This document shows positions 10,470 through 26,919 of a stretch of DNA of 64,000 nucleotides, one piece after another; the stretch's first letter is position 1; every line of letters starts with the position of its first letter. The position numbers and the translations under genes were made by a program. The notes below the pieces were generated by a model. That model saw only the letters and a list, made by a program, of their open reading frames with translations, did no database searches and was not told the DNA's origin. This DNA is from Carboxylicivirga sp. (GTDB taxonomy: Bacteria > Bacteroidota > Bacteroidia > Bacteroidales > Marinilabiliaceae), in NCBI GenBank assembly GCA_025210475.1, contig JAOARW010000088.1, positions 1 through 64,000 of the forward strand. Direction: 5' to 3'.

Positions 10470-10490
10470 TCACGACATGTTTAAAAAATT

Positions 10491-12479
10491 ATGAAGTATA
10501 TTGACAGAGACCTCAGCTGGCTGGCTTTTAACGGGCGAATAATTCAAGAGGTAGCAAGCGGGAATGTGCCACTGATGGAACGACTGAAGTTTGTGGCCAT
10601 CTTTTCATCAAATCTGGAAGAGTTTTATAAGGTGCGGGTGGCCAGTCATCGCTTCGCACAAAAATATAAAGGTGATAAGCGAAATAAATATGGCTACCGG
10701 CCATCTTTTATTTTGCAACAGATCAACAATATTGTTAGTGAACAACAAGCCAAGTTGGGTCAGCTTTTTTATGATAAAATTGTAAAAGAGATGGCAGTTG
10801 AAGGCATTCACTTTTTATGTGGCGACATTGAAGGTGATGATGTGAAACTGATTGAAGGCTATTTCGATAAGCACCTTCAGGGGCACATCACATTGATGGA
10901 TATCACAGATAAGGACTCATTGGATCTGAAAAATCAAGCCATTTACCATTACATTGTTGCGTCGGATAAGCATTATTTATTGGAGCTGGACTATAAAAAA
11001 TGGGGGCGATTTATCACCTTATCCCAATCTGATGATGAAACCAGGATTATTCAGTTAGATGATATTTGCCGCAACAACATCCATAAAATTGTAGGAGAAC
11101 AGGCAGAGGTTTATGCCTTCAAGATATCGCGCGATGCGGAGTTGTACATCGATGAAGAACAGGATGAGAGCATCGTGAAGAAGATAAAAAAGAGTCTTAA
11201 GAAAAGAGATACAGGCCTGCCTTCGCGTTTGTTGTTTAATGAGAATATCCCGTTTAATTACATTAATAAACTTCGTAAGAAGCTCGATCTGGACATGACG
11301 AGTTTAATTCCGGGCGGACGCTATCATAATTATTACGATTTTTTTGCTTTCCCATCCTTTCCGGATAAGCCACATTTATACAACCAGCCGGAAGCCAGTC
11401 TTCCTTGTCCGCAATTGGACGATAGTAAGGATTGGTACCAGACGGTTAAGGCGAATAATGTGTTTTTAAGTTTCCCCTATCAGAAGTTTGATTACGTTAC
11501 CGATTTTCTGATGATGGCGGCCAACGATCCGCAGGTGGAAGAAATATATACTACACTGTACCGGGTTAGCAATACATCTGAGATAGGAGTAGCCCTTGAA
11601 AAAGCAGCATTGGCAGGTAAGAAAGTGTTTGTATTATCAGAGGTGTTAGCCCGCTTCGATGAAGAATCGAATATATACTGGGGTGAGCGGCTGGAGCAAG
11701 CCGGGGCTGAGGTGAAGTACGGCATTGACACCTATAAGGTACATGCCAAAACCTTTTTGGTTAAACGGCGCGAGGCAGATCAACTGGTTTCCTATGCCTA
11801 TCTGGGCACAGGTAATCTTAATGAAAAAACGGCTCGTATTTATGCGGATCATGGTATTTTATCGGCCGATAAGCGTTATACCGATGATTTGAATGAGGTA
11901 TTTAAATTCCTGATGGATACTAGCTATGAGCCATCGTTTAAGCATTTGTTGGTTGCCCCTTTTACACTTCGTTTGAAGGTTAATGAAGCCATCGATAATG
12001 CGGTTAAAAGGGCTAAAGCAGGGGAGAAATCAACACTGTATATCAAACTCAATAGCTTGGAGGATCCGGAGATGATCGATAAAATTCGCAAGGCGGCAGA
12101 TAAAGGTGTACAGTTTCAAATGGTGGTCAGAGGCGTGTGTTGTTTTCAGGCACAGAACCAAACACAAAAGAACAACGTCAAAATTGTTAGTGTGATTGAT
12201 AAATACCTCGAACATACCCGGATCTATTGGTTTGACGAGGAGCAGGTGTACCTGGCATCTGCCGACTGGATGACGCGTAACCTTTCCTCCAGGGTGGAAA
12301 TAGGTTTCCCGGTATGGGATGCAGCGGCCAAAGATTTGTTGTTGAAACAGATTCAATACCAGTTGAATGATGGTTTAAAAGGTCGGATTATCGATAATGA
12401 AATGAATAATCAATACGTTGAAGGAAACAATAAATTGCCTTCACAAGCGTATTTATATGAATTAGTTAGTAAATTGTAG
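10491..12479 (+). CDS. ppk1: Polyphosphate kinase 1
   Basis: This 662-residue enzyme polymerises the ATP gamma-phosphate into inorganic polyphosphate, reversibly. The N-terminal domain opens with DRDLSWLAFNGRIIQE and has MERLKFVAIFSSNLEEFYKV. The two catalytic phospholipase-D-like halves carry the phosphorylated histidine His418 in DTYKVHAKTFLV and the second histidine His575 in KYLEHTRIYWF. YLGTGNLNEKTARIYADHG and YLASADWMTRNLSSRVEIG are signature blocks. It is slightly shorter than the roughly 690-residue E. coli enzyme but complete. The neighbours are a GAF protein (21 nt upstream) and an HD-PycTM protein (124 nt downstream). Both catalytic histidines are present, so it should be active. 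Confidence 0.97.
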   Translation: MKYIDRDLSWLAFNGRIIQEVASGNVPLMERLKFVAIFSSNLEEFYKVRVASHRFAQKYKGDKRNKYGYRPSFILQQINNIVSEQQAKLGQLFYDKIVKEMAVEGIHFLCGDIEGDDVKLIEGYFDKHLQGHITLMDITDKDSLDLKNQAIYHYIVASDKHYLLELDYKKWGRFITLSQSDDETRIIQLDDICRNNIHKIVGEQAEVYAFKISRDAELYIDEEQDESIVKKIKKSLKKRDTGLPSRLLFNENIPFNYINKLRKKLDLDMTSLIPGGRYHNYYDFFAFPSFPDKPHLYNQPEASLPCPQLDDSKDWYQTVKANNVFLSFPYQKFDYVTDFLMMAANDPQVEEIYTTLYRVSNTSEIGVALEKAALAGKKVFVLSEVLARFDEESNIYWGERLEQAGAEVKYGIDTYKVHAKTFLVKRREADQLVSYAYLGTGNLNEKTARIYADHGILSADKRYTDDLNEVFKFLMDTSYEPSFKHLLVAPFTLRLKVNEAIDNAVKRAKAGEKSTLYIKLNSLEDPEMIDKIRKAADKGVQFQMVVRGVCCFQAQNQTQKNNVKIVSVIDKYLEHTRIYWFDEEQVYLASADWMTRNLSSRVEIGFPVWDAAAKDLLLKQIQYQLNDGLKGRIIDNEMNNQYVEGNNKLPSQAYLYELVSKL

Positions 12480-12603
12480 ATGTAAATAATCAACAATTGA
12501 CCGGGATTTGAATCAGGGCATTGAAAGCGGGCGAAAGGCCAATATTCTTTTAATGTTTCAGATTACAATCATCGGTATTTAATGAGCTTTATAATTAGAT
12601 AAT

Positions 12604-13815
12604 ATGGACAATGCTTCATGGACTTTATTGGTGACGGAATGTATGCCAATAGCTGAAGACAAAATAAAAAAGCACCAGGAAAGTGAGCACAGCTTTCATA
12701 ACTGGGAACATACTTTGAATGTGCTTAACTCGGTTACAGAAATTGGATCGAATACGCCTGAGATTGGTGAAAAAGAATTGGAAGGTTTGCAGTTAGCCGC
12801 TTTGTTTCATGATGCAACGGCTTGCGAAGAGATTAAAGGACATGAAGTAAAATCGGCTGCCTTTGCCCGACAGGTGTTGCAAGAAAAGAAATATGCCGAG
12901 GCTTCTATTCAGTTTGTAGAGCGATTAATATTGTGTACCAAATTAGGTGTTGTGCCGGCTGATATTTATGAACAGGCACTGAAAGATTCGGATCTTTCGC
13001 ACCTGAAAAACAATAATTACATCCGTGTTCAGTTTCTGAATCTTTACAAAGAGATTATTGCAGCCAAGGATAAAACACCTCAGCAATGGATTGAAGATTG
13101 CATCGTGTTTTTCGATCGACATGAATTCTATACAACTTATGCCAAAGAGAATTATCAGGAAGGTAAAGCCAAAAATCTTGAACGCCTGAAAGTCCTTGCT
13201 GAAAAAGAAATACTGACTTTGAGTGAATTGGAGAAGAGCACTGAAAAGAAGAAAAAGAAGAAGAAGGGTGGGGTAGAGAAACCCGATAAAGGTATCGAGA
13301 CCATGTTTCGTGTTACTTTACGTAATCACTTGAATTTAAGTCGAATTGCAGACGACAAAGCCAATACCCTGATCAGTGTAAACGGTATAATTATATCCAT
13401 TGTTTTATCAACGCTTTTTCCAAAACTGGATAACAATGCCTATCTGATGATTCCGGCCTTATCACTGGTGATTTTTAGTGTGGCCACAATTATTATCTCC
13501 ATCATCTCCACAATTCCACGTACTACTCACGGGCTGATGACACGTGAAGAAGTGAGCAATAAACGCGGTAACCTGATCTTCTTCGGAAACTTCCATAACA
13601 TGGCGCAGGGCGATTTTGAGTGGGGAGTTGAGGAACTGATGCAGGATAAAGATTACCTCTATAAAAGCCTGACAAGGGATTTATATTTTCTTGGAAAAGT
13701 GCTCAATAAAAAATACACTTATTTGCGTATGGGCTATCTCACCTTTGTGGTTGGTTTGTGTATTTCGATTATAGCGTTTGTGATTAGTATTCTACTACTT
13801 AATCACGGTGGATAG
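12604..13815 (+). CDS. HD phosphohydrolase fused to Pycsar-effector-like transmembrane domain (DUF5706-like)
   Basis: This 403-residue two-part protein has an N-terminal HD domain (about 1-200) with metal-ligand candidates His36 (HNWEHT), His69-Asp70 (ALFHDAT) and Asp130. HD domains hydrolyse phosphoesters, often of nucleotides. A lysine-rich linker (about 211-229, seven Lys in a row) leads to a membrane module with segments at about 255-272, 280-303 and 377-399. It contains RNHLNLSRIADDKANTLISV and later FFGNFHNMAQGDFEWGVEEL, which match the PycTM effector family that damages membranes when cyclic UMP/CMP binds in Pycsar phage defence. No cyclase gene lies beside it, so this may be a housekeeping relative. 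The gene starts 124 nt after ppk1. Confidence 0.8.
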   Translation: MDNASWTLLVTECMPIAEDKIKKHQESEHSFHNWEHTLNVLNSVTEIGSNTPEIGEKELEGLQLAALFHDATACEEIKGHEVKSAAFARQVLQEKKYAEASIQFVERLILCTKLGVVPADIYEQALKDSDLSHLKNNNYIRVQFLNLYKEIIAAKDKTPQQWIEDCIVFFDRHEFYTTYAKENYQEGKAKNLERLKVLAEKEILTLSELEKSTEKKKKKKKGGVEKPDKGIETMFRVTLRNHLNLSRIADDKANTLISVNGIIISIVLSTLFPKLDNNAYLMIPALSLVIFSVATIIISIISTIPRTTHGLMTREEVSNKRGNLIFFGNFHNMAQGDFEWGVEELMQDKDYLYKSLTRDLYFLGKVLNKKYTYLRMGYLTFVVGLCISIIAFVISILLLNHGG

Positions 13816-14014: not shown

Positions 14015-15139
14015 TTAGCCTAATTGTTTTTGCGCAAAAGATTCGGCAACCAGCTCTAAATACTTCGGGGCATTTTCAATTGAATCATTCATGTTTAGAG
14101 CATATCGACTGGTTTCGTCCAGATAGTCAAAGGGCATTGTTTCTTGTTCCTGTGCCTTCAACTCGCTAAGACCACAAAAGACAGCCAGTTTCTGGGAGCT
14201 AAGGCTATCGATAATGCCTTTAATGACTTTGCCCGAAAAGGTTTGCTGATCGAGCTTACCTTCGCCGGTGATGACCCAATCAGCCCCTTTGATTTTGTCA
14301 TCGAAGTTAGCTGCAGCTTTTATCAGGTCGATGCCCGATTTAAGCTTAGCGCCTAAAAATGCAATGCTTCCGGCACCCAGCCCCCCGGCAGCACCACTAC
14401 CTTTTATATTCTGTAGATCAATGCCCATCTGCCTTTCAATTACCTGGTGATAATTGATCAGGCCATTATCTAGTCGTTTAACCATGTTTTTATCAGCACC
14501 TTTTTGAGGAGCATAAACAAATGCTGCCCCTTGAGGACCAAAGAGAGGATTATCCACATCGCACGCCACTTCAAAGCTCACCTGGTTTAAAAGTGGATGA
14601 ACCATGCTTGTATCGATGTGGGATAGTTTATTAAGATCGTTGCCAATACCACTTAATTCATTGTTGTTTACATCATAAAAACGATATCCCAGGGCCTTGG
14701 CCATGCCCAAACCACCATCGTTGGTAGCGCTGCCGCCAATGCCCAGCAGAATATGCTGAGCGCCTTTTTCCATGGCATCTTTTATCATTTCACCGGTTCC
14801 ATAGGTTGAAGTCAACAAGGGATTGAGCACATCTTTCTTTAGAAGTCGAATGCCTGATGCGGCCGACATTTCAATAAATGCCGTATGTCGATCAGCTGAT
14901 AGAAGGTAAGATGCCTCTATCGAACGGAAAAGCGGATCATTAAGCTTCAGTTCTACCAGTGAGCCATCCAAAAAATAGCGTAAGGCCTCAATGGTACCAT
15001 CGCCACCATCAGCCAGGGGACAACTTATAATATTAACATGGTCAACGTGTTTTCGGATGCCTCTTTCCACCACCTCACAAAACTCAATGCCGGTGAGCGA
15101 TCCTTTGAATTTATCTGGTGCAATTACTATTTTTTTCAT
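14015..15139 (-). CDS. Glycerate kinase (GlxK/GarK-type glycerate 2-kinase)
   Basis: This 374-residue type 1 glycerate kinase phosphorylates D-glycerate with ATP to feed lower glycolysis. The hallmark start KKIVIAPDKFKGSLTG is followed by CPLADGGDGTIEAL, the glycine-rich HILLGIGGSATNDGGLGMA and the late GSGAAGGLGAGSIAFLG and ADWVITGEGKLDQQTF. I chose the ATG at 15139 because homologues begin MKKIVIAPDKFKGS; an upstream TTG start (15184) would add an unlikely 15 residues. It follows the GH38 gene but is separated from it by a strong terminator. Its leader shares a 14-nt motif with the GT4 gene at 21226. Its presence is the main clue that glycerate is released by this locus. Confidence 0.93.
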   Translation of the reverse strand: MKKIVIAPDKFKGSLTGIEFCEVVERGIRKHVDHVNIISCPLADGGDGTIEALRYFLDGSLVELKLNDPLFRSIEASYLLSADRHTAFIEMSAASGIRLLKKDVLNPLLTSTYGTGEMIKDAMEKGAQHILLGIGGSATNDGGLGMAKALGYRFYDVNNNELSGIGNDLNKLSHIDTSMVHPLLNQVSFEVACDVDNPLFGPQGAAFVYAPQKGADKNMVKRLDNGLINYHQVIERQMGIDLQNIKGSGAAGGLGAGSIAFLGAKLKSGIDLIKAAANFDDKIKGADWVITGEGKLDQQTFSGKVIKGIIDSLSSQKLAVFCGLSELKAQEQETMPFDYLDETSRYALNMNDSIENAPKYLELVAESFAQKQLG

Positions 15140-15182
15140 GTGTTTATAATTTAGCAATATGCCGATAATCAGCGTAAATATC

Positions 15183-15196
15183 AATCATTCTCCTGT
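15183..15196 (-). promoter_or_regulatory. Leader motif shared with the GT4 gene (copy 1)
   Basis: On the plus strand this reads AATCATTCTCCTGT; on the sense (minus) strand ACAGGAGAATGATT, beginning 44 nt upstream of the glycerate kinase ATG. The identical 14-mer occurs at 21226-21239 upstream of the GT4 gene, and both genes also share AAACACATG at the start codon. A common regulatory or leader element is inferred. Confidence 0.45.
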
Positions 15197-15231
15197 GTAC
15201 GCAATTATTTGTTCTGGCCATGCCAGTTTCT

Positions 15232-15292
15232 AAAAAAAAACGGGACTCTTAACTCTAACCAATCACTTTCACAAAAAAATGTTAAGAGTCCC
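15232..15292 (-). terminator. Strong terminator after the GH38 gene
   Basis: A perfect 12-bp stem GGGACTCTTAAC/GTTAAGAGTCCC (15242-15253 with 15281-15292) has a 27-nt loop. On the minus strand it is followed by G and nine T. It lies 20 nt after the GH38 stop and upstream of the glycerate kinase gene, so it should end or attenuate the transcript from the upstream genes. Confidence 0.85.
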
Positions 15293-15312
15293 AATTTTAA
15301 AAAAAATATTTG

Positions 15313-18147
15313 TCAAACGTTCTTATCCGGATCTTTAAATGCTTTGATATAATCGTACACACGTCTTTGCACACGAGCTTCATTTAAACCATAGCCCAAT
15401 TTTTCAATTTCCTTTTCATTATATCGGTGTTGCGCCAATATGCTTGAAAGCTGAGCCTCTAAGGCAGAGCGACGCCACATGGGATGATCTGCTTTGGACT
15501 TAAGCTTCTCAGCACGTTGTTGTTCCTTGTTTATTTCCACTCTCGAAACATAACTGGCATAAGGAAAGCGATCAAAATTTTCTACAATTCGCTGGGTCTC
15601 ATAAATAAAATCAACAGACTCATTCATAGCATAAGCCTGACGCTTGATTTCCAGACGAAGCGTAAAAATCTTTTTGGAAGCGATCCTCATGGTCACCTCA
15701 TTATTTTTTACATCTACTTTTTCAGTTTCTTCTTCCAGAAGGTTAGTTAACACCGCCTTTTGGATTTGTAATTTTGAACTTAAGCGGCATGTGCTTTCTT
15801 TCATTCCAGCGTTATAAGCTCTAATAATAATGGCTTGCTTGTCTTCACTGCGTTTTAAGGCAGTTATTTTAACCGTGTTATTGCTGTCGGTAATTGAAAA
15901 GAAGGAATCATTAGTGCTAAGTGTACCTTTGTGGCGATCAGTAGTGCAAAGTAACAGGTCGGTGTTATAGATATTTGCAACCTGGCATACCTGACCCTGA
16001 TCGGTATTGCCCTGGTGTGGATAAACGGCATATTCGAAAGCCATCTCGCGCAGGCATTGAGCATCGGGTGTGAATATTTCAGGGCCGGCATCACCTATTC
16101 TCGAATTAATATCTTTTGCAATCCAGCCCACCGAGCGAAAGAGGGTTAAGGCAATGGTGTCCTGTTCTATGATTTGATATTCGGGCAGACCTCTGGAAAG
16201 AATTGCCAAACCGTTTTCTTCATCATTGATATCTACAAACTCACGGTTTAGAAAGATGGTATTGGGTTTTGCTTCACGGGCACCTATTATCACTTTTTTA
16301 ACATCTTCCGGAATGCTTGATTCATCATAGTCATCCAGATGTATAGGACGTTGAACGACATCAAAGGGACTGCCGGCATGCGCAACATCTGATTGAATAT
16401 CGGTTTTGAATAAAACACGCATGCGATGATCTTTTACGGTGTTGCGCAAAAGGGTTTTGCATTTGACGATATCAGAATCAGCTTCAATGGTATAGTAGGT
16501 AACAATGGGTAAATCGCGCATTGTTTCACTTCGGGTGCTGTGGTTTTGAGCATCCGACTCGGGTAAACTCATTATCAATTCTACCCTGAATGTGGCCAGT
16601 GTATCACTTTGCTCCGCCAGAGTGATGTGTGCCTGGCAATCTTTACTCGTAATAATTTGGTCAACATCAGGATAGGAATAGTTGTATTCATCACCTGTGT
16701 CGGCACCATTCTCAAAAATTCCCTGATTTTGATATGATTTGCCCGATGTGATATGCAATAAATTAAACGAACCATTAGGATTAAATTCGACTTTTATCAG
16801 GCCATTACTTACTTTCAGTCCTTCTGTAATTACCGGATGGTTAGGTTTATCAGCTTTTTCGATTACCTTGTATCCCATGGCAGGAATGGCCTTGACAAAG
16901 AAATTGCCAGACTCGAATGCCAGATTGCCTGTAAGCTCGTAAAGGGAAGTGTTAAATACAACCCTTACCTCCTTGCTTTTAGCTTTTGAAGTGTTGATGA
17001 GGCTGCAAAGCTCAGTCAGTTTTTTCTCAGTCAGTGATTGACTCAGTTGGTGTACCACGCGTGTGCGGTTTTCCATTTCAATATGCACATCATCAATGCT
17101 GACACCACATATACTGTCGTGCGGATGGTTTTTAAGCAGCGTTTTCCAGGCTTCTTGTATGAGCGTTTTTTCATACTCACCACCTAAAAGCCAATTGAGG
17201 GCAGAAAGAGGTTCCACGCGCTTTTCAAGAGCTTTTTGCTCCTGGTCGTTTTGTAGTTTCAGGTACATACGAGCCGACATAACACCCGGAAAAACAGAAA
17301 TAAACCGACCACTGTAAAGTGCTCCTTCCAGGGTTTTAAGAGTAGGATTCTCATCCATGACGGCATTGATATATTTTTCAGGATTACTCTGAATAACTTT
17401 AAAATCATCAGTATCCATTTGTCCCTTTGCCAGATGCGGTTGAATGTCGTCGGGAATCATTTCCTGGTCGTAACCATTCATTAGCAGGAGGTGGCTTGAT
17501 GTAGCAAATGGCGATAGTTTGTTTACTTCATCAAGCACCCGCTCTTTCATAATATCACTGTGTTCGGCCAGTCGCATAACATTGCGATAACTGTCGAGTA
17601 AATAGATAGATGGGATGTTGGTGCCATCGGGCGATTGCCATATAAACTCCGATTGAACATCATTGGGATTCATTTCAACACCACGCCAAACATACAGGCC
17701 CTTTAAATTAAATTGACGGTGTATCTGAGCTGTTTGTGAAATTTGCCCGAAATTATCCAGCATCCAGCCAACCTGCATGGCACCGCCTAGTTCTCTGGCG
17801 GCTGAAATACCATAAAGCAGGTTGCGAACCAACGATTCTTCGCTTAATAACTGCCAGTCGGGCTGTAAGTAATAAGGACCGATGAAAAGACGCTTCTGAT
17901 CCACATATTTGCGAATCTTGCGCTTGTAATGGTTAACATTATACTGATGCTTGTCCAGCTCTTCGAAGTAATCTTCAACCATGGCCATTTGCCCATCCAA
18001 CACAAAGATATACTCAGGTTCCTTTTCGAACATCCGAAACAGGTTATCGAAAAATGGAATTAACCATTGGTTGGTGTACTTACTGTTTAAGTACCATTCT
18101 CTGTCCCAATGTGTATGCGATATTATATGTGCCGTTTTTCGTTTCAC
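15313..18147 (-). CDS. Glycoside hydrolase family 38 alpha-mannosidase (possible mannosylglycerate/mannosylglucosylglycerate hydrolase)
   Basis: This 944-residue protein has no signal peptide, so it acts in the cytoplasm. GH38 zinc ligands are visible in SHTHWDREW (His13, Asp15), Asp131 in GWMLDNFGQ, the likely nucleophile, and a later NHPHDSICGVSIDD. The length and architecture fit bacterial GH38 enzymes such as MngB. GH38 enzymes hydrolyse alpha-mannosides with retention. It follows the GH13_18 gene by 21 nt and ends just before a strong terminator. With the phosphorylase and glycerate kinase alongside, mannose release from mannosylglucosylglycerate is a good guess; ordinary alpha-mannosides remain possible. 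The start is GTG at 18147, since the nearest ATG is out of frame. Confidence 0.9.
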   Translation of the reverse strand: MKRKTAHIISHTHWDREWYLNSKYTNQWLIPFFDNLFRMFEKEPEYIFVLDGQMAMVEDYFEELDKHQYNVNHYKRKIRKYVDQKRLFIGPYYLQPDWQLLSEESLVRNLLYGISAARELGGAMQVGWMLDNFGQISQTAQIHRQFNLKGLYVWRGVEMNPNDVQSEFIWQSPDGTNIPSIYLLDSYRNVMRLAEHSDIMKERVLDEVNKLSPFATSSHLLLMNGYDQEMIPDDIQPHLAKGQMDTDDFKVIQSNPEKYINAVMDENPTLKTLEGALYSGRFISVFPGVMSARMYLKLQNDQEQKALEKRVEPLSALNWLLGGEYEKTLIQEAWKTLLKNHPHDSICGVSIDDVHIEMENRTRVVHQLSQSLTEKKLTELCSLINTSKAKSKEVRVVFNTSLYELTGNLAFESGNFFVKAIPAMGYKVIEKADKPNHPVITEGLKVSNGLIKVEFNPNGSFNLLHITSGKSYQNQGIFENGADTGDEYNYSYPDVDQIITSKDCQAHITLAEQSDTLATFRVELIMSLPESDAQNHSTRSETMRDLPIVTYYTIEADSDIVKCKTLLRNTVKDHRMRVLFKTDIQSDVAHAGSPFDVVQRPIHLDDYDESSIPEDVKKVIIGAREAKPNTIFLNREFVDINDEENGLAILSRGLPEYQIIEQDTIALTLFRSVGWIAKDINSRIGDAGPEIFTPDAQCLREMAFEYAVYPHQGNTDQGQVCQVANIYNTDLLLCTTDRHKGTLSTNDSFFSITDSNNTVKITALKRSEDKQAIIIRAYNAGMKESTCRLSSKLQIQKAVLTNLLEEETEKVDVKNNEVTMRIASKKIFTLRLEIKRQAYAMNESVDFIYETQRIVENFDRFPYASYVSRVEINKEQQRAEKLKSKADHPMWRRSALEAQLSSILAQHRYNEKEIEKLGYGLNEARVQRRVYDYIKAFKDPDKNV

Positions 18148-18168
18148 AACATGATGTTAAAATGATTA

Positions 18169-19830
18169 TCATAGTTTTTTAATCCAGATAAAAGAGAAGG
18201 GTTTAAGTACTTCTTTTTCTGTTGCTCCGTCGTCTAATAGGATAGTTCCATGGGCATATTGGCTAAAGCTTTTTTCTTCGGAAGTGAAGTTGTGCAAACA
18301 CAAAATACTTTCATTATCACAGTTGCGCTCAATTATAAAAAGGCCATTATCATTATAGAATTTAGCTTGTCCGAACGGGTGAAAAGCGCCTTGCCCTTTT
18401 CGGATTTTAAGCATGTTCTTATAGCGTTGGTGTACTTTATAACGCAAAGATTGATTGTTGTTTAGTTCTTCACTAAGGGTTGCAAAATCAAGCTTTTCGC
18501 GGTTTATCCTGCGTTTTATGCCTGAACTTTTTGCGCCATCCACATCATTGGAAGAGCCTAGCAATGAGTGATAATAAACACCTGGAACCCCCGGCATGGT
18601 AATCATTACCGATTGGCTTAACAGAAATCGCTGTGCACGTTCTTCATGGCTTGACGAAGGATTTGTAATAAAATCCATGTAATTACAGTTGAGCTCATAA
18701 GGCGATTCTGAACCGTCTGGATTGGTTTTGTAAGAAACGAAACCACCGTGTTCTTTGGCTTTATCAGCCAGGTGATTTATTTCTTCATCTGAAATAATGC
18801 CTTGTAACGGGCGAACACCAATACCATCGTGGCTGGCTGTGAAATTGAAAAAGCAGGTTTGCTCAGATGGTAGTTGCAGTGATTGTGCCCAGTTGGTTAG
18901 TACCTCAACATTTTCGTTGTGGATGCTAAAGGCCAACAGTGGTGGTAAACTGAAATTATAAACCATGTGGGCTTCGTTGGTTCCATCTCCAAAGTACGAG
19001 ATATTCTCGTTATGAGGCACATTTGTTTCGGTAATGATCACAACCTGTGGGGCAACTAATTCGAGAATCGATCTGTAGGTTTGGATAATCATATGTGTTT
19101 CATCGAGGTGAATACACGAAGTGCCCAATTTTTTCCACATAAATGCGATGGCATCCAAACGAATCATGCGAGCACCATAGGAGATATACTCCAGTAGTAC
19201 TTCCAATACCTTGAGAAATACATCGGGATGGCCATAGTTAATATCCACCTGGTCCTCCGAAAAGGTAGTCCACACGTATACTTCCTTCTCATCTTTAATA
19301 TAGGGATGGAGTAGGGGGTGAGTACGTGGTCTTGTTACTTTTTTCAGATCTTCATTGGACGGATCTTCTTCAATAAAAAAGTTGGCAAAGTCTTCGTGCC
19401 CTTTTAAATAGTTTTTAAACCAGTCAGATGACTTTGAAATGTGGTTGATGACAGCATCGAACATTAATTTAACATCGCCACTAAGTTTTTGGATGTCTTC
19501 CCAATCGCCATATTCAGGGTTTACTATCAGGTAGTCCACCACCGAAAAACCATCGTCGGAGGTAAAGGGGTAAAACGGAAGAATATGGACATAATTCACA
19601 CATTCACTAAGCAGTTCGTTATAGGCTTTGTTAAGCGTTTTAAGAGACTTTTCTCCAGATTTCTTAAAACTGTCGGCATAGGAAATAAGCACCACATCAT
19701 TCGCCGTAAGATTAAATGCTTCCGACGTAATATTGCTTTTGTAGTGATGGATAATGGTATCCAGTTTATTCATCACTTCATTGGCATGTTGTGGATATAA
19801 GTGTTTGATATTTTGCTGAATCGTTTTCAT
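18169..19830 (-). CDS. GH13 subfamily 18 phosphorylase, probable glucosylglycerate phosphorylase
   Basis: This 553-residue cytoplasmic protein is sucrose-phosphorylase-like. The catalytic triad is Asp226 (MIRLDAIAF, nucleophile), Glu268 (IITETNVPH, acid/base) and Asp335 (TASHDGIGVRP). The family uses phosphate to split alpha-glucosides into glucose 1-phosphate. Known members act on sucrose, sucrose 6-phosphate, glucosylglycerol or glucosylglycerate. The RPLQG loop after the third aspartate differs from the DIG loop I associate with true sucrose phosphorylases. Combined with glycerate kinase and a GT4 in the same locus, glucosylglycerate (products Glc-1-P and glycerate) is my preferred substrate. 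Its ATG directly abuts the GT4 stop codon (TAA|ATG), which indicates coupled translation. Confidence 0.85.
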   Translation of the reverse strand: MKTIQQNIKHLYPQHANEVMNKLDTIIHHYKSNITSEAFNLTANDVVLISYADSFKKSGEKSLKTLNKAYNELLSECVNYVHILPFYPFTSDDGFSVVDYLIVNPEYGDWEDIQKLSGDVKLMFDAVINHISKSSDWFKNYLKGHEDFANFFIEEDPSNEDLKKVTRPRTHPLLHPYIKDEKEVYVWTTFSEDQVDINYGHPDVFLKVLEVLLEYISYGARMIRLDAIAFMWKKLGTSCIHLDETHMIIQTYRSILELVAPQVVIITETNVPHNENISYFGDGTNEAHMVYNFSLPPLLAFSIHNENVEVLTNWAQSLQLPSEQTCFFNFTASHDGIGVRPLQGIISDEEINHLADKAKEHGGFVSYKTNPDGSESPYELNCNYMDFITNPSSSHEERAQRFLLSQSVMITMPGVPGVYYHSLLGSSNDVDGAKSSGIKRRINREKLDFATLSEELNNNQSLRYKVHQRYKNMLKIRKGQGAFHPFGQAKFYNDNGLFIIERNCDNESILCLHNFTSEEKSFSQYAHGTILLDDGATEKEVLKPFSFIWIKKL

Positions 19831-21159
19831 TTAAAAAAGTTTTTTCAATAATAAACTTAAAGCTTTAACAGACAGGTGCTGATTGGCAATATTGTAGTTC
19901 TCTTGCACGCAAAGGATACGATGATCTTTATTAATGAGGAAACGAATGGTTTCTTTCACAGCCAGCAACAAAGTTTGGGGATTTATCGAGGCTAGTTTAT
20001 TAACCCGTTTATATCTGTTGCCAAGCGAAATGATATTAAAATTGTATTGGGCAATATCAGAACCATAAACCGGATATTCGTAAGTAACAACCGGTATTTT
20101 GGCAACCAGAGCCTCTATAAATTGGTTGCCCCATCCTTCCAGAATGCTCGGATACGTTACAATGTCGGCCATGGTATACGCATCCCACAATGAATATATT
20201 TTTTTACCCTCCTCTGTTCGCCTCTGGTGATCAATGCTATCTGACGCATTAATGAGTTGAACATTTTTTTCTTCAGCGTAACTCAATAGCAAATCATAAT
20301 AGGGCTCATCTTCTACCATGCCCGCCAGTACCAGGTATATCTTACTGTCGGCGGTAAACGATTGACCATTGTATAATGGCAGATCAGATGGTTGATCAGT
20401 TATTTTATTTAGTTCAGCAATAAGATCGATGGCCAGTTCAATGCCCTTACGTTCAACCACGCGGGTGGCCTGAAGAAATACCAGATCGTTGGGTTTGATG
20501 CCCAGCGATGAGCGCAGGTCCTGGTTGTAATTGTCTATTGCAATCAGGTTTTGTTCAAAGTCAAAAACATTGGGCACCACAGTGGCATCAATGTTAAAAC
20601 GTTTTTTTAGCTCGTTTTTAGCCAGGTGGTTGATGCAGACATGTTGAATGTTGTCATCAACCGGAGGAAAATACGATTGTAAAATATCACGAACGAAGTC
20701 ATAGATAGGTGAGGAGTACAAGTCTCTTTCCCAGTGAAAATCATGGTGATGGCAGATGGCTTTGACGCCACTGTTCTTTATAGCACGATAGAAAGCAATT
20801 CCTGCCGATAAGCCCCAACCAAGCGATAAAATATTGTTGGGTACAATAACATCGGGTTTATGGGTGTTAATGATCGTGAGTAACTCTTTTTCGATGGTAT
20901 CGGCCAAATCAAAAATTTGTTTCTCCAGCTCTTTCTCCAATCCGTTAACGTCGTCGCCGTAGGCTTTTTGTACGATATTTAAGTTCTCCTCATTTTTATA
21001 ATGGAGACTTTTTATGATCTCGGCCTCGCAGTTGCCTGAACTGCCGGCAATGTAAAACACCTCGTGCCCATTCTGTTCAAGTGCTTTTTTCCACTTGTCC
21101 ATTTCCAACGAAACACCATCGGTTTCTCCAACTCTAAAATGACATAAAGCAATTTTCAT
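19831..21159 (-). CDS. GT4 family glycosyltransferase, possible mannosylglucosylglycerate synthase
   Basis: This 442-residue GT-B fold enzyme has an N-terminal acceptor domain that begins MKIALCHFRVGETDGVSLEM with a glycine-containing donor loop. The C-terminal domain has EGWGNQFIEALVAK, the E-x7-E motif of retaining GT4 enzymes (about residues 340-350). The opening RVGETDGVSLEM...W is, from memory, also seen in enzymes that mannosylate glucosylglycerate (MggS-type); I cannot verify this by search. No signal peptide. It heads the GT4-GH13_18-GH38 run. Finding a synthase beside degradative enzymes is odd; it may make the same solute, or act on an unrelated acceptor. The general family is firm, the substrate is an inference. 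Confidence 0.8.
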   Translation of the reverse strand: MKIALCHFRVGETDGVSLEMDKWKKALEQNGHEVFYIAGSSGNCEAEIIKSLHYKNEENLNIVQKAYGDDVNGLEKELEKQIFDLADTIEKELLTIINTHKPDVIVPNNILSLGWGLSAGIAFYRAIKNSGVKAICHHHDFHWERDLYSSPIYDFVRDILQSYFPPVDDNIQHVCINHLAKNELKKRFNIDATVVPNVFDFEQNLIAIDNYNQDLRSSLGIKPNDLVFLQATRVVERKGIELAIDLIAELNKITDQPSDLPLYNGQSFTADSKIYLVLAGMVEDEPYYDLLLSYAEEKNVQLINASDSIDHQRRTEEGKKIYSLWDAYTMADIVTYPSILEGWGNQFIEALVAKIPVVTYEYPVYGSDIAQYNFNIISLGNRYKRVNKLASINPQTLLLAVKETIRFLINKDHRILCVQENYNIANQHLSVKALSLLLKKLF

Positions 21160-21190
21160 GTGTTTAATTTTTTTCAGTTGTCATAACTTG

Positions 21191-21205
21191 TCCCGCTTGG
21201 CGGGA
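21191..21205. repeat. Short palindrome upstream of the GT4 gene
   Basis: TCCCGC-TTG-GCGGGA lies in the 118-nt gap between the symporter stop and the GT4 start. It is a strong small hairpin without a following T-run on the minus strand. It may affect transcript stability or separate symporter from enzyme expression. Confidence 0.5.
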
Positions 21206-21225
21206 TGGAACTCTCAAAAAAATTT

Positions 21226-21239
21226 AATCATTCTCCTGT
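21226..21239 (-). promoter_or_regulatory. Leader motif shared with the glycerate kinase gene (copy 2)
   Basis: This is the second exact copy of AATCATTCTCCTGT (plus-strand reading), 67 nt upstream of the GT4 ATG. The other copy precedes the glycerate kinase gene. Two identical 14-mers in two short leaders of one locus are unlikely by chance. Confidence 0.45.
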
Positions 21240-21277
21240 CTGTAATTTTTATGATTAAAATTTTCATGTTCGTTTCA

Positions 21278-22921
21278 TCAGGCAAATATTTGAGGTATGT
21301 AATAACTAAAGATAACGATGGCGATAAAGAATGCGATTAGGATATACGACTCTTTTATAAAAATGTCTTTTAGGCGTAATTTGTAATTAATCACCATGCT
21401 TTTATTGTTTTGATCCTTAACAAGGGTGCTGACGATATAAGCGATACCCACACAAAGACCGAAACCTGTAAAGTTCAGCCAGATCCAGAAAATATCTACG
21501 CCCGGATCGAAGCCAATGATTTCCTGCATCGTTTTGGAAAATATCAGGTTAATAAGTACAGATGCGATGATACCGGCATTCATACCATATTTATTTACTT
21601 TTTTAGAAAAGATGGCCAATAGGAAGGTTGCCAATACAGGGCCGTAAAAGACCGAACCAATGGCATTGATTATTTCAATGACCGAACTTTCGCTGCCCCC
21701 CAATAGAAACGCACAGGCAATGCATACCCCACCCCAGAATACGACGGCAGCTTTTGAAACAGCCATGTATTTTTTACCTTCCAGTTTCTTTTTTCCCCGG
21801 TTAAAGAAGTCTTCAACCGACACGGCAGAAAGGGAATTAACCGTTGAGCTTAAAGATGACATGGCAGCCGATAAGATGCCCACCATTAATAATCCGATTA
21901 CGCCATGGGGTAAATATTTGGTGATAAATACAGGCACCATTAAATCGGGCTTAACACCCGAGGAAGCATACTCCTCAGGAAAATATTTTTGGGTAACAGC
22001 ACCGATATCTGTTAAAAAATCGGGTGCAACGCTTAACAAACCACCTAAAACCAGTCCCATGGTACAATAAACCAAAACAACCGGCATTCGAAGCATGCCA
22101 TTGGCCAATAGTAGAGTATGTATCGTTTTTTCATTTTTGGCCGATAACAGCCTTTGTGCCTGGGTTTGATCGCAACCGTAATACGATGCATATAAGAAAA
22201 AACCTCCAATGAGCATAGGCCATATGCCATACTCGGCGCCCTCGCCAATACCAAAGTTACTTTGTATAACCTGCAGGCGTGCCGCATCAACATTGGCTAA
22301 GGAACCACCATGGTCAATCATCAGGTTATAGCCATAAACCAAACAGATAACCAGGCCTGCAAATAGAATGATCATTTGAATGGTATCGCCCCAAACCACT
22401 GCTTTCATTCCGCCTTGCCACGAATAAATGATGGTTACCAAACAAATCATTGGGATTGTATAGATAAAATCAATATCTAATACTGCCTGAAGTATAATGG
22501 CGATGGTATAAACCATAACACCTGTTCCCAGTGCCCGGCTGATTTGAAAAACAATACTTAATATCATGCGGGTTGAAGCATCAAATCGTTTTTCAACAAA
22601 TTCGTAAATACTGACAACTCCCGATTTAAAAATGGGTGGAATCAGGATGACCATGATGAAAAACATCGCTAATGGAACGGCAAATTCAAAGCTTAACCAT
22701 TTCATACCTCCACCAGCTTTTAAGGCTACAAAAGCCGGGGCAGAAACAAAACTGATGGCCGATAGCTGGGTGGCCATTGTGGATAAACTCAAGGGGAACC
22801 AACTCAAACTTTTTCCGCCAAGAAAATAGTCGGTGGAGTCTTTATTCTCCTTAAAAAAATAGCCCATCCCCAGGAAGCTGGCAAAGTATAAAAGTATAAC
22901 GATGTAATCGAGCCAATTCAT
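21278..22921 (-). CDS. Sodium:solute symporter (SSS family)
   Basis: This 547-residue inner-membrane protein has about 13-14 helices. The start MNWLDYIVILLYFASFLGMGYFF and STDYFLGGKSLSWFPLSLS are typical of SSS proteins, where the segment ATQLSAISFVSAPAF forms part of the sodium/substrate site. It lies between the TonB receptor and the GT4 gene, all on the minus strand, so it probably carries the solute that crosses the outer membrane through the receptor. In this context the substrate could be an anionic or neutral glycoside such as glucosylglycerate; the family also moves sugars, sialic acid and amino acids. Confidence 0.9.
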   Translation of the reverse strand: MNWLDYIVILLYFASFLGMGYFFKENKDSTDYFLGGKSLSWFPLSLSTMATQLSAISFVSAPAFVALKAGGGMKWLSFEFAVPLAMFFIMVILIPPIFKSGVVSIYEFVEKRFDASTRMILSIVFQISRALGTGVMVYTIAIILQAVLDIDFIYTIPMICLVTIIYSWQGGMKAVVWGDTIQMIILFAGLVICLVYGYNLMIDHGGSLANVDAARLQVIQSNFGIGEGAEYGIWPMLIGGFFLYASYYGCDQTQAQRLLSAKNEKTIHTLLLANGMLRMPVVLVYCTMGLVLGGLLSVAPDFLTDIGAVTQKYFPEEYASSGVKPDLMVPVFITKYLPHGVIGLLMVGILSAAMSSLSSTVNSLSAVSVEDFFNRGKKKLEGKKYMAVSKAAVVFWGGVCIACAFLLGGSESSVIEIINAIGSVFYGPVLATFLLAIFSKKVNKYGMNAGIIASVLINLIFSKTMQEIIGFDPGVDIFWIWLNFTGFGLCVGIAYIVSTLVKDQNNKSMVINYKLRLKDIFIKESYILIAFFIAIVIFSYYIPQIFA

Positions 22922-23001
22922 GCTAGTTGATTTATTTAGTTCATAATCTGAGTTCTGATATTTAAGCCAAACTCAGCTTTAAAGCAATGTAACTAAAATC
23001 C

Positions 23002-23027
23002 GGAAGAGGGCACTTTTACCCTCTTCC
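23002..23027 (-). promoter_or_regulatory. Hairpin between the TonB receptor and symporter genes
   Basis: A perfect 9-bp stem GGAAGAGGG/CCCTCTTCC has an 8-nt loop, 50 nt after the receptor stop codon. On the minus strand it is followed by GGATTTTAG rather than a clean T-run, so it could be a weak terminator or an RNA-stabilising element that makes receptor mRNA more abundant than symporter mRNA. Confidence 0.55.
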
Positions 23028-23076
23028 TGGTTTAGCCCAAAATAAATTTGGATTGAAGTATATTGAAGTTCTGGTT

Positions 23077-25746
23077 TTAGAAATTAAAGGTTGCTCTAAC
23101 AAAAGTTCGACGTGGCAATATGGGGCGTCCAACAAAAAACTCACCTGTGCCCGATTGTGTTACGTCGCGTGGGTTACCTTCCGTTACTCCGTTGTCGTTA
23201 AATAGGTTAAATACTGAAATACCGAAACGTAAGGATTCACCATCTTCGCCAAGAGGCATGGTGTAGCCGGCATCCAATCGGAATATGTTGATCGCATCCA
23301 ACTCAACGGAATTGGCTATGTTGGCAAATTTCTTTCCGGTATAGTTCCACGAGAAGCCCGCATCAAACTTTTCAGTTGTGTAATCCAGGGCTGCAAATGA
23401 TAAGAAATCAGGCTGTCTTTCAAGCTTATTGCCTACATAACTGGTTTCTGATGGATCAGCTAATATATGACCATCGTATTCGTGGTTTTGGTATGTTAAG
23501 CTACCGTTAAAGTTCAGGTTCTTTGCAAAATCGTATGACCAGGTGGCTTCAACACCATATGTTTTAGTACTTAGTACAGTGGCAACTTCGATGGTTGTGC
23601 CCGGATTATTAGGATCATCGCGTAAATCAACATTTGTACGATCGTTAAGATCCACAAAGTATCCTGCAAATGTTCCTCTGAATCGGCTTGTTCCGTATTT
23701 TACACCCAGTTCGCCCTGATAAATTTGTTCAGTTTCATAAGAACCAACAGTACCGTCGCCGGCTATTTTTATTCCCCTTGGTTGAGGAAAGAAGTAACCT
23801 TTTGTAACGTTACCATATAAATTCACGGCTTCGTTTAATTCGTAGTTGGCTGCAATAACTCCGGCCCAGTCAGTATCACTTCCTTCGCCTGTAAGGTAGG
23901 CATTGTTACCCCATTTTACAGTTTGTAAATCTGATGATAAACTGCTGTCATCGCTCATGGTAAACGTGGTGTTGCCTTCGCGGGAAATAAAGGCATTAAT
24001 TTTTTCCACACGCAAGCCTACATCGATGCGCCAACGATCCATTTTCATTTCGTTAGTGAGGTATATGGCTTGTTTGTTAGCTGTTACAAAGTTGTTGGCA
24101 TAAGCTGCTCCGGGGTTGTATAAACCATTTCGGCTGAGTGTCATGTTGTTGCCTCCGCTTGTATAAGTAATGTCTAACAAGCGTGGTTTGGAAGCAAATT
24201 CCGATACATAGCGTGTTTGTACATTTTCATCCTGGGCCTCACTGCGTGATAAAAACAGGCCAAGGGTAATGTTATGTTCCAGTGAACCCGAATACAATTT
24301 TTTGGTAATATTAAATTCAGATGCCAGATCGGTCATCGGACGATTTCGATCGAGCAAGGTATTTACCAACACCATGTCGCGTGGTTGTCCTCCACTGTGA
24401 GTACCTTGTTGCATTTCACCATTTGTTCCGGTATAGATGGCTCTGATATTGGTGGCAGCAGGATCAATGTCGTGAACAAAGTCAGCCAGTCGAGCCGGGT
24501 TACCCGAACCAGTCAGGAATAGATTAAACTGATGCTGATACCTGGCGTAACGTAGTTTAGCATCCATTTTAAGCGTTTCGCTAAATCGACGTTTGTAGTT
24601 GGCCATAAAGTAACCACCTTTGGTCATTACACCATCTTTGATAGGTGTTCGGTAAATGCCATTGGGTGTTTGGTACGACAGATTTTGAGCATGAAAGGTT
24701 TGAATGGTTTTTACCTCGTTGAGGTCGTTGCCAATGGCATAGTCCCTAGAACTGCCATCCAGCGGAAGTGGTAAAAAGAATTGCACACGATCATCGATGT
24801 ATTGACCAGACATCACCAATTCACCATTGTTATCAAATTCCTGTTTGATGTTACCACGTAATTGGAAACCTTGTGATGGAAGACCTGTATCAAGAGGACC
24901 TTCGTCGTAGCGGTAAGTTCCGCTAACGGCATAGTAAGTGCGCGAATCCTCACCACCAATTTTTCCGCCTGAAAAGAAATCTGTTTTGTAACGACCACCA
25001 TCGGCATATTCAATTTGTGCAATATTTTGTGGAATGTCGGTACCGGTTTTTGAAATGTAGTTAATTACACCGGCCACCGATCCGGCACCATATAAAATAG
25101 CAGCACCACCACGCGGAAAATCCAATGATTTAATACCAAGGTCGGTTCGCATATAAACATCGTGTGCAGATGAGTTTAAACCAAAGGTGCTGATCAGGGG
25201 CATGCCATCGTATTGCAATGGATTAAACACATACTGTCCGCCAGAAGGTAGGCCGCGCACAAATACATTGGTAGCTACTTCACCACCACCACCTTCGGCT
25301 GTAATACCCGGTACCGATCTTAAAATATCGGCCTGACTGCTGGCTGATTTCTTTTGAATCTGTACATCCTTCATCGAGGTCATCGACATGGCTGATTGTT
25401 TTTGAGAACGTACCGTTCTTGTACTAGTGATCATTACTTCATCCAGGCCTACGCCTTCCGTTAGTACAATGGTCATTTTGTCGGATGATGTAAAAGTCGT
25501 TTCATTGGTTTTATAGCCTACAAAGCTGGTCATTATTGTAATGGGTAAAGCTTGTACTTCCAGTTGAAATTCACCATCCATATTGGTGATGGTACCATTG
25601 GCTGTGTTGCCTTTTTCAAAAACAGTGGCACCGGGTATGGTTGCTCCGGTGGCATCTTTTACAATACCTGAAATCATGGTTTGTGCATGACTTGCAAACG
25701 CAAAAAATGCAAATAATAATGTAAATAACAACAGTGATTTTTTCAT
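23077..25746 (-). CDS. TonB-dependent outer-membrane receptor (no SusD partner)
   Basis: This 889-residue protein has a signal peptide ending in FASHAQ, then a carboxypeptidase-regulatory-like domain (about 25-110, ISGIVKDATGATIPGATVF). The plug domain (about 120-230) has VFVRGLPSGGQYVFNPLQYDG, and a 22-strand barrel ends in RRTFVRATFNF with the terminal Phe. It is a FecA/CirA-like receptor rather than SusC, since no SusD gene accompanies it. It actively imports a ligand into the periplasm with TonB energy. It is the first gene of the minus-strand locus and is divergent from the LacI gene, with an operator-like palindrome between them. The ligand is inferred to be the compatible solute handled downstream. 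Confidence 0.92.
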   Translation of the reverse strand: MKKSLLLFTLLFAFFAFASHAQTMISGIVKDATGATIPGATVFEKGNTANGTITNMDGEFQLEVQALPITIMTSFVGYKTNETTFTSSDKMTIVLTEGVGLDEVMITSTRTVRSQKQSAMSMTSMKDVQIQKKSASSQADILRSVPGITAEGGGGEVATNVFVRGLPSGGQYVFNPLQYDGMPLISTFGLNSSAHDVYMRTDLGIKSLDFPRGGAAILYGAGSVAGVINYISKTGTDIPQNIAQIEYADGGRYKTDFFSGGKIGGEDSRTYYAVSGTYRYDEGPLDTGLPSQGFQLRGNIKQEFDNNGELVMSGQYIDDRVQFFLPLPLDGSSRDYAIGNDLNEVKTIQTFHAQNLSYQTPNGIYRTPIKDGVMTKGGYFMANYKRRFSETLKMDAKLRYARYQHQFNLFLTGSGNPARLADFVHDIDPAATNIRAIYTGTNGEMQQGTHSGGQPRDMVLVNTLLDRNRPMTDLASEFNITKKLYSGSLEHNITLGLFLSRSEAQDENVQTRYVSEFASKPRLLDITYTSGGNNMTLSRNGLYNPGAAYANNFVTANKQAIYLTNEMKMDRWRIDVGLRVEKINAFISREGNTTFTMSDDSSLSSDLQTVKWGNNAYLTGEGSDTDWAGVIAANYELNEAVNLYGNVTKGYFFPQPRGIKIAGDGTVGSYETEQIYQGELGVKYGTSRFRGTFAGYFVDLNDRTNVDLRDDPNNPGTTIEVATVLSTKTYGVEATWSYDFAKNLNFNGSLTYQNHEYDGHILADPSETSYVGNKLERQPDFLSFAALDYTTEKFDAGFSWNYTGKKFANIANSVELDAINIFRLDAGYTMPLGEDGESLRFGISVFNLFNDNGVTEGNPRDVTQSGTGEFFVGRPILPRRTFVRATFNF

Positions 25747-25775
25747 AACAAGTTGGATTTATTGATTTAACGCCA

Positions 25776-25807
25776 GCAAGTTAAATTGTGTTTTTAGTAT
25801 TGCCAAA
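25776..25807 (-). promoter_or_regulatory. Candidate promoter of the TonB receptor gene
   Basis: Read on the minus strand, TTTG (25804-25807) and TAACTTGC (25776-25783) are spaced 20 nt apart and resemble the -33 TTTG and -7 TAnnTTTG boxes of Bacteroidota. The -7 box is imperfect. The LacI-type operator lies just upstream of the -33 box. Confidence 0.4.
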
Positions 25808-25817
25808 TTTTGTAATT

Positions 25818-25837
25818 TTACGTAAACGATTACGTAA
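25818..25837. promoter_or_regulatory. LacI-type operator palindrome
   Basis: TTACGTAAACGATTACGTAA is a near-perfect palindrome with the central CG expected for LacI-family operators, placed between the divergent LacI regulator (starts 25882) and the TonB receptor (starts 25746). It probably controls both genes and binds the regulator encoded alongside. Confidence 0.7.
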
Positions 25838-25881
25838 GAAAATAATTTATAATTTATAACGAATCTAAATAAAAGTGACCA

Positions 25882-26919
25882 ATGGGACGAATAACGTTAA
25901 AGGATATTGCTAAAGAGTTAAACACAACTGTTGCTACCGTGTCGAGAGCACTCCATAATTCGCCTGAAATTGGAAATGAGATGAAAGAACGGGTTAAAGC
26001 TGCTGCCAAAAAGCACAATTACAAGCCCAATCAAACGGCACTTTCTTTAAAGTACCAGCGCTCATATACTTTCGGGGTCATTTTTGCCACATTACAGCAG
26101 GATTATATGTCAACTATTCTGCATGGTATGTTATTGGCCGCATCAAAGGCCGGATATAAATTAATTGTGGCCGAGAGTAATTATAATCCTAAAAAGGAGC
26201 TTAAGCTGATTAAAGAGTTTTATGAAATGAATGTGGATGCCATTCTGATATTGCCAAGTCGAAAACTCAATATGTATACCGAAAAGCTGGAGGCCATCTT
26301 AAGAGATGATATTCCTTTTTTGGTAATAGATAAAGTGATTGATCCAGGTAAACGCCACTTACCTTTTATTACCTCCGATGATTATGTAGGAGCCTGCGAA
26401 GGCATTAATCATTTGCTGGAACAAGGCTATCGTAACATTGCACATGTACGGGGATTAGAATCGTCGTCGGTGGCTCGCATCCGCCATAAGGCCTATCTGG
26501 ACACGCTTGAGAAACACCACGTGCCAGTGAATGACGATTTTATTATCTACTGTAATGATTTTACCCGCGAAGAGGGATTTGAATTGGCGCAACAGTTAAT
26601 GTCAGGTCAAACCAAGCCTGATGCATTCTTTTGTATTAACGATATTGTTGCCATTGGCGTGCAACAGGCTTTGATAAATATGGGATACCGTATTCCTCAA
26701 GAAATCGGGGTACTCGGTTTTAGCAACTCCGATATTTCTGAGGTTTGCACACCTCGCTTATCAACTATTCACCAGCCTGCAAAGGAAATGGGTAAAAAAA
26801 GTATTAAGCTGATTTTATCAAACATTAATAAAGGAAAGGACATTGACAACAAGCGTATTGTTATGAAAACAAGTCTGGTGATTCGCGAGTCGAGCAATCG
26901 AAAGCTAATCGGTCGGTAA
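25882..26919 (+). CDS. LacI family transcriptional regulator
   Basis: This 345-residue regulator has an N-terminal helix-turn-helix (about 4-50) with ITLKDIAKELNTTVATVSRA, the standard LacI DNA-reading helix, plus the hinge helix NYKPNQTALSLK. The periplasmic-binding-protein-like effector domain fills the rest, with QQDYMSTILHGMLLAA near its start and LSTIHQPAKEMGKKSIKLIL near the end. It is divergent from the receptor gene, with an operator-like palindrome 45 nt upstream of its start, so autoregulation and control of the 14-26 kb locus are expected. The effector is unknown; a solute or sugar from the pathway is likely. A compact regulator of this type usually represses or activates depending on ligand. 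Confidence 0.93.
   Translation: MGRITLKDIAKELNTTVATVSRALHNSPEIGNEMKERVKAAAKKHNYKPNQTALSLKYQRSYTFGVIFATLQQDYMSTILHGMLLAASKAGYKLIVAESNYNPKKELKLIKEFYEMNVDAILILPSRKLNMYTEKLEAILRDDIPFLVIDKVIDPGKRHLPFITSDDYVGACEGINHLLEQGYRNIAHVRGLESSSVARIRHKAYLDTLEKHHVPVNDDFIIYCNDFTREEGFELAQQLMSGQTKPDAFFCINDIVAIGVQQALINMGYRIPQEIGVLGFSNSDISEVCTPRLSTIHQPAKEMGKKSIKLILSNINKGKDIDNKRIVMKTSLVIRESSNRKLIGR

Follow-up and report, generated by a model that had tools for sequence, protein, structure and literature searches.

A LacI-linked locus of Carboxylicivirga sp. predicted to take up and use glucosylglycerate-type osmolytes

A stretch of 64,000 nucleotides from Carboxylicivirga sp. (contig JAOARW010000088.1, positions 1 to 64,000; hereafter the window) carries at 14015..26919 a locus that is probably a LacI-controlled system for uptake and utilisation of sugar-glycerate osmolytes. 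Judging from gene families, signature residues and conserved gene order, glucosylglycerate (GG) would be its central intermediate, mannosylglucosylglycerate (MGG) its most likely full substrate, and a family 4 glycosyltransferase (GT4) would be accessory. The solutes taken up are most likely osmolytes released by other microbes. An earlier reading of the sequence alone had listed a LacI regulator, a TonB-dependent receptor (TBDR), a sodium symporter of the sodium:solute symporter (SSS) family, a GT4, a GH13_18 phosphorylase, a GH38 alpha-mannosidase and a glycerate kinase (GK). All seven are present as intact open frames that fill the locus, each with at least one Pfam match over the curated cut-off. 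Six lie on the minus strand and are transcribed in the order TBDR, SSS, GT4, GH13_18, GH38, GK; the LacI gene is divergent. The features are as follows.

14015..15139, minus strand: GK (TIGR00045 421 bits, cut-off 168; PF02595 Gly_kinase 441 bits)
15313..18147, minus strand: GH38 alpha-mannosidase (four GH38 Pfam domains)
18169..19830, minus strand: GH13_18 protein, predicted glucosylglycerate phosphorylase (GGaP; TETN and loop-A Glu signatures; Alpha-amylase Pfam 79 bits)
19831..21159, minus strand: GT4 of the mannosylglucosylglycerate synthase (MggS) family (NF041101 427 bits; Glycos_transf_1 48 bits)
21278..22921, minus strand: sodium:solute symporter, predicted inner-membrane importer (TIGR00813 222 bits, cut-off 184; SSS Pfam 138 bits)
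23077..25746, minus strand: TBDR (Pfam barrel 92, plug 53 and CarbopepD_reg_2 55 bits)
25818..25837, no strand assigned: predicted LacI operator, TTACGTAA-ACGA-TTACGTAA, with perfect 8-base arms
25882..26919, plus strand: LacI-family regulator (PF00356 helix-turn-helix 52 bits; Peripla_BP_3)

The GGaP gene starts at the base directly after the GT4 stop, and the GH38 gene starts 21 bases after GGaP. The GK frame was listed from a TTG at 15184; homology starts at an ATG at about 15139, the likely start. The TBDR has a signal-peptide-like start and a CarboxypepD-like N domain. By eye, no signal peptide was seen in the GH38, GH13_18, GT4 and GK proteins, so breakdown should be cytoplasmic. From the linkage of these genes, the TBDR and the symporter would carry the solute intact to the cytoplasm, where GH38 would free mannose from MGG to leave GG. 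GGaP, which bears the expected signatures, would then convert GG and phosphate into glucose 1-phosphate and D-glycerate, and the kinase, whose family is clear, would turn glycerate into phosphoglycerate for glycolysis. The GT4 would most likely serve as an MggS-type GDP-mannose transferase that re-mannosylates GG, part of the imported solute thus being kept as MGG osmolyte.

Passages of PMC7178133 recognise a GGaP by a (T/S)ETN motif at beta-strand 5 and by Glu replacing Gln in loop A, and an excerpt of PMC6720575 likewise uses the loop-A Glu. The window protein has both, as IITETNVP and SPYELN. Two sucrose-phosphorylase-like proteins and a glucosylglycerol phosphorylase that were aligned with it lack both; their loop A reads YQ. 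Among 65 distinct GH13_18 proteins of the fetched loci (YcjM of E. coli and the window protein included; 96 rows before deduplication), TETN or SETN was found in 63 and the loop-A Glu in 64. The exceptions are L063, which has TQTN, and the sucrose-phosphorylase-like L210, which has neither signature. YcjM, annotated as GGaP and bearing both signatures, is 46.5% identical to the window protein over 514 amino acids. Grouping of the protein with sucrose phosphorylases would have refuted the sequence-only reading; as both signatures are present, this refutation does not apply. Identity as a sucrose or sucrose-6-phosphate phosphorylase is ruled out by the motifs together with the score against the sucrose phosphorylase model TIGR03852 (226 bits, cut-off 334, not reached). 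We infer from the signature residues that the window enzyme phosphorolyses GG.

Related loci were sought through GGaP in 395 genomes of the phylum, 395 of the class and 393 of the order, the window's own genome included. Matches were obtained in 36 other genomes, and the neighbourhoods of 28 were annotated by open reading frames (ORFs) and tblastn. The symporter is present in five of the 28, linked each time to GGaP and GK, and accompanied by a TBDR in four; GK adjoins GGaP or GH38 in all five. G1209 (L261) reproduces the window order, LacI // TBDR-SSS-GT4-GGaP-GH38-GK, at 54-80% identity, and G1162 (L260) has the same order minus GT4, again with a divergent LacI gene. The other three encode a GH63 enzyme instead of GH38: TBDR-GH63-SSS-GT4-GGaP-GK with a divergent AraC-like gene in G877, LacI // TBDR-GH63-SSS-GGaP-GK in G395, and, in G1149, GT4-GH63-SSS-GGaP-GK in a stretch that lacks a TBDR. 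Since the window order recurs in G1209 and symporter variants of it in G1162, G877, G395 and G1149, the arrangement is not due to chance; the identical order in G1209 also disposes of a unique assembly or artefact. By protein, the symporter is 80% identical in L261, 74% in L260, 60% in L234, 58% in L262 and 56% in L250; the TBDR 68% in L261, 61% in L260, 47% in L234 and 44% in L250; LacI 56-57% in L260/L261 and 36% in L234; GGaP 58-59% in L260/L261; and the GT4 54% in L261. Receptor-mediated uptake combined with GGaP, GH38 and GK in a single locus, as proposed from the sequence alone, is supported by families, signatures and linkage in sister loci.

In the other 23 neighbourhoods, no match to the window symporter or receptor was found in the stretch; GpgS lies beside GGaP in nine, and a c20-like gene in nine more. 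A further type of GGaP cluster, seen in the search of the window's order (L263-L265, L267, L268 and L270-L273), comprises a protein of about 430 amino acids, a c20-like protein, a protein of about 484 amino acids (weakly GT4-like in 8/9), GGaP and, in 5/9, GK. Outside the phylum, the Petromonas locus L248 (Bacillota) holds, in this order, ManA, GT4, a 458-amino-acid ORF where a binding protein would be expected, two permeases, an ATPase, a LacI-family protein (26%), GH38, GK and GGaP.

GH38 gives Pfam matches over the cut-off in its N-terminal, middle and both C-terminal domains. It is 70% identical to its counterparts in L260/L261, 55% to that of L248 and 26% to MngB of E. coli. Its predicted role is to strip mannose, in the cytoplasm, from either MGG or mannosylglycerate, MGG being the likely one of the two.

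With regard to regulation, the 135-base gap between the divergent LacI and TBDR genes carries TTACGTAAACGATTACGTAA at 25818-25837. The corresponding gap of L260 and L261 contains CGTAAACGTTTACG, so that an operator-like site occurs there in all three TBDR/SSS loci with GH38. CGTAAACGNTTACG has one exact match in the window; three matches were counted when up to two mismatches were allowed, a number reached by 6/100 shuffles. The predicted operator therefore rests on its conserved place and not on the count.

The sequence-only reading had gone further and suggested that the locus may import, make and recycle a compatible solute, with the GT4 as candidate synthase. The family assignment stands: the GT4 aligns over the full length of the MGG synthase model and, by sequence, appears to belong to that family. 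Self-contained synthesis is not supported, for the genome is not self-sufficient for GG or MGG, as no GG synthase was found in it. Its best match to the GpgS model NF010496 reaches 54 bits (cut-off 262), and no Ggs-like protein was matched in the genome at 1e-10 with an L184 protein as query, a protein whose Ggs name is itself inferred from a weak GpgS match. Elsewhere, GpgS passed the cut-off in 4/17 genomes tested, all four with a clade-I GT4 (see below), and the Ggs-like protein was detected in 5/27. A complete biosynthetic locus is therefore rejected, and the "make" part of the earlier proposal is not supported; for synthesis, GGaP would have to work in reverse or GG would have to come from outside. 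Moreover, two sister loci lack a linked GT4 (in G1162 no trace of it was found in the 357-base SSS-GGaP gap). The core persists there, which points to an accessory GT4.

The place of the GT4 within its family was analysed in a tree of 109 relatives, taken from the best 80 of at least 531 relatives and from 19 of 64 Thermotogota genomes with matches; the partial L088, the broken L120 and any weak second copy of GT4 with <28% identity were left out. The tree has two parts, clade I with 39 rows and clade II with 70, separated at an SH-like approximate likelihood-ratio support of 99. GpgS lies within 9 kb in 10/39 rows of clade I and 0/70 of clade II; clade II contains the window GT4 together with the Thermotogota proteins that pass the NF041101 cut-off. 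In this tree, 12 Vibrio proteins (13 rows, support 99) form the sister group of the window GT4, but a second tree, built from 71 clade-II rows, places it in no well-supported small group. Compared by alignment, the two clades show near-fixed differences (≥90%) at positions 231 (P/A) and 346 (A/Q) only, and Q346 is found in 71/71 clade-II rows once L250 is added. These sites flank R233, K238 and E341-E349, residues that we take to have a donor-phosphate role, as in GT4 enzymes in general; A231 and Q346 would hint at changed donor handling, not acceptor handling. A search for solved structures with the window GT4 gave no match at E ≤ 0.001.

Within 9 kb of the 70 clade-II GT4s (window included), ATP-binding cassette (ABC) permeases were found in 58, a LacI, ROK or RpiR regulator in 41, GGaP in 30, and GH38, GK and a Ggs-like enzyme in eight each, counts which short contigs depress and, for the permeases, unrelated neighbours may inflate. 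The MggS-family GT4 thus sits mostly near importers. Several of these neighbourhoods hold further genes. Vibrio loci L055:1461-11332 and L057:211-11335 encode an MggS-family GT4 (two copies in L057), phosphomannomutase, an ABC importer, a ROK regulator and a 533-amino-acid protein without Pfam or NCBIfam match. Proteins of 605, 583 and 370 amino acids without Pfam match occur in or near GT4 import clusters at L065:8170-9987 and L169:163-3023. A TreC-like GH13 glucosidase (L060:4764-6440) adjoins a clade-II GT4 in an 8.7-kb contig without GGaP, and a GH4 enzyme (L078:11343-12653) adjoins another in a locus where GGaP is present.

Several observations weigh against a scavenging locus for MGG with an accessory GT4. 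First, four model scores stay below their cut-offs: GT4 against NF041101 (cut-off 640), GH38 against the mannosylglycerate hydrolase model NF007331 (489 bits, cut-off 1138), the GH63 enzymes against their nearest model, glucosylglycerate hydrolase NF047898 (317 bits in G395, 276 bits in G877, cut-off 550), and the phosphorylase against the sucrose enzyme model mentioned above. Secondly, the operator-like site had no match in L234, L248, L250 and L262; a LacI-family gene is present in L234 and L248. Thirdly, ABC permeases without GH38 accompany 51/70 clade-II GT4s, at odds with a purely accessory role there. Finally, GH38 could act on mannosylglycerate in place of MGG, and the GH63-type loci without GH38 make the mannosyl part of the substrate less sure.

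The last point leads to an alternative that we consider unlikely, namely that the mannoside used is mannosylglycerate (the digeneaside of red algae), which GH38 would split into mannose and glycerate while GGaP handles GG separately and MGG plays no role. Mannosylglycerate hydrolase is the sole curated NCBIfam match of GH38, and the sister-locus GH63 enzymes match mannosylglycerate/glucosylglycerate hydrolase models; that of G395 scores 303 bits against the mannosylglycerate hydrolase-like PF22422 (cut-off 27), and the G1149 enzyme is 70% identical to it. However, an MggS-family GT4 is present in 4/6 symporter-type loci (window, G1209, G877, G1149), three of which have it between the symporter and GGaP genes, and the identity of GH38 to MngB is low.

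Other alternatives, which overlap one another, give the GT4 a larger part. It is possible, if rather doubtful, that GT4 and GGaP work as a pair in place of dedicated enzymes for GG synthesis or hydrolysis. The pair would either make GG and trap it as MGG, or degrade MGG by two phosphorolyses in turn, with the GT4 as a new GT4 phosphorylase; neither route was found described in the open-licence literature searched. In the former version, which appears improbable, GGaP would make GG from glucose 1-phosphate and D-glycerate and GT4 would pull it to MGG, the pair replacing GG synthase and MggS while import, GH38 and GK serve recycling; it differs from scavenging in the direction of GGaP. Consistent with this, GGaP and the Ggs-like enzyme, each sought in 21 genomes with a clade-II GT4, never co-occurred (GGaP only in 15, Ggs-like only in 5, neither in one, G511), GGaP being counted at ≥44% identity and split over two frames in G503. 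Of the clade-II GT4s, 31 were GGaP-linked at a distance of up to 9 kb, eight were Ggs-linked and none was linked to both; no site was fixed (≥85%) for different residues between the two groups; and in the window, L261 and L250 the GT4 gene directly adjoins or overlaps that of GGaP. The exclusion count is, however, weakened because the genomes are related: 11 of the 21 are Thermotogota (GGaP only 5, Ggs-like only 5, neither 1, both 0), and since all five Ggs-like genomes come from this one phylum it may reflect few events. The uncertain name of the Ggs-like query tells against it too. Furthermore, GK would drain the glycerate needed, the LacI and importer context looks catabolic, and no GT4 is linked to the GGaP gene of G1162 or G395.

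In the latter version, which we regard as quite improbable, the GT4 itself is catabolic and phosphorolyses MGG to mannose 1-phosphate and GG (or cleaves it with GDP), so that two phosphorylases act in series. The many import clusters, most of them without GH38, and the confinement of the near-fixed differences to the donor-phosphate region would suit it, as would phosphomannomutase in the GT4 cluster in 8/70 rows (all Vibrio) and mannose-6-phosphate isomerase in 2/70 (one Petromonas). Phosphorylases do occur in GT4, those known in 2022 being, according to a passage of PMC8950772, all trehalose phosphorylases. On the other hand, phosphomannomutase and ManA also serve GDP-mannose synthesis, the activity would be redundant in the window where GH38 is present, and some clade-II GT4s with the same conserved residues are clustered with a Ggs-like synthase. 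Members over the cut-off share the clade, and MggS of T. maritima reportedly uses GDP-mannose and GG in vitro.

The scavenging locus preferred here can be compared with several known systems. MGG synthesis in Thermotogota (Petrotoga, Thermotoga) is said to proceed by Ggs and MggS. The window shares with this route a GT4 of the same clade, but has no Ggs-like match, has GGaP and GK, and differs in its transporters. The Thermotogota clusters L173, L184, L185 and L187 combine an ABC importer, GH38 (26-32%), a Ggs-like enzyme and GT4; in L184:9394-17373, ABC importer, GH38 (26%), Ggs-like synthase, RpiR and clade-II GT4 place MGG-making and MGG-breaking enzymes side by side. In the E. coli mng system, mannosylglycerate enters through a phosphotransferase system and is then acted on by the GH38 MngB. 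The window is predicted to share a GH38 step on a mannosyl-glycerate compound after uptake, whereas it lacks the phosphotransferase system and has GGaP. The E. coli ycj cluster combines GGaP with genes of an ABC transporter and with the repressor YcjW, presumably of LacI type. GGaP operons are also described in parts of PMC7178133 for Meiothermus silvanus and Spirochaeta thermophila besides E. coli ycjM, often with GK, GpgS or GpgP genes alongside; GGaP is already known to be linked to genes for glycerate kinase and for GG synthesis. The window has in common with them GK and a GH13_18 with both signatures, but it has TBDR and sodium symporter for uptake, an added GH38 and MggS-family GT4, and no GpgS over the cut-off.

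The mycobacterial glucosylglycerate hydrolase, which we take to be a GH63 enzyme, is the nearest model for the GH63 of G395 and G877; GH38 takes its place in the window. That hydrolase is treated in a portion of PMC11009771. With polysaccharide utilisation loci of Bacteroidota the window shares a TonB receptor, intracellular enzymes and a regulator; it differs in having no SusD gene among the locus ORFs and no exported hydrolase, and it would act on a small charged solute, not on a polysaccharide. As the TBDR does not reach the SusC cut-off (95 bits, cut-off 368) and no SusD is found, there is no SusC/SusD pair and a Sus-type locus is ruled out.

No locus joining a TonB receptor and a sodium symporter for GG-type solutes was described in the open-licence literature searched. 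In the marine cyanobacterium Prochlorococcus NATL2A, GG is one of the two main compatible solutes according to an excerpt of PMC11631117, and one of PMC3694870 reports MGG accumulation in Rhodopirellula baltica and Petrotoga. Many organisms not thought to accumulate GG carry a putative GGaP, whose in vivo purpose is called unsettled in a passage of PMC7178133; scavenging through this locus would be a testable answer. If correct, the TBDR and symporter locus would explain how some heterotrophs consume GG and MGG solutes and would supply marker genes for this consumption in metagenomes. It also raises the question whether the "MGG synthase" enzyme is biosynthetic in its many import clusters.

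In its genus, only the window genome has the locus. In 13 same-genus genomes, neither GT4 nor GGaP was found at E ≤ 1e-40, save for a 32% sucrose-phosphorylase-like match in G006, and GH38 was found in 0/99 relatives at E ≤ 1e-60. GC content gave no clear island signal. Stretches of 15-20 kb from five same-genus genomes gave no match to any of the 14 window ORFs compared, all from 27228 onward, which does not fix the borders of an island. The left flank, 4235-13815, is kept in these five genomes. It includes at 12604-13815 a gene for an HD domain plus PycTM (Pycsar effector) domain protein that adjoins polyphosphate kinase 1, the pair being kept in five same-genus genomes. On the other side, a GH2 beta-galactosidase at 36257-39397 is followed by a hybrid two-component regulator at 39802-43974, perhaps a separate glycan locus.

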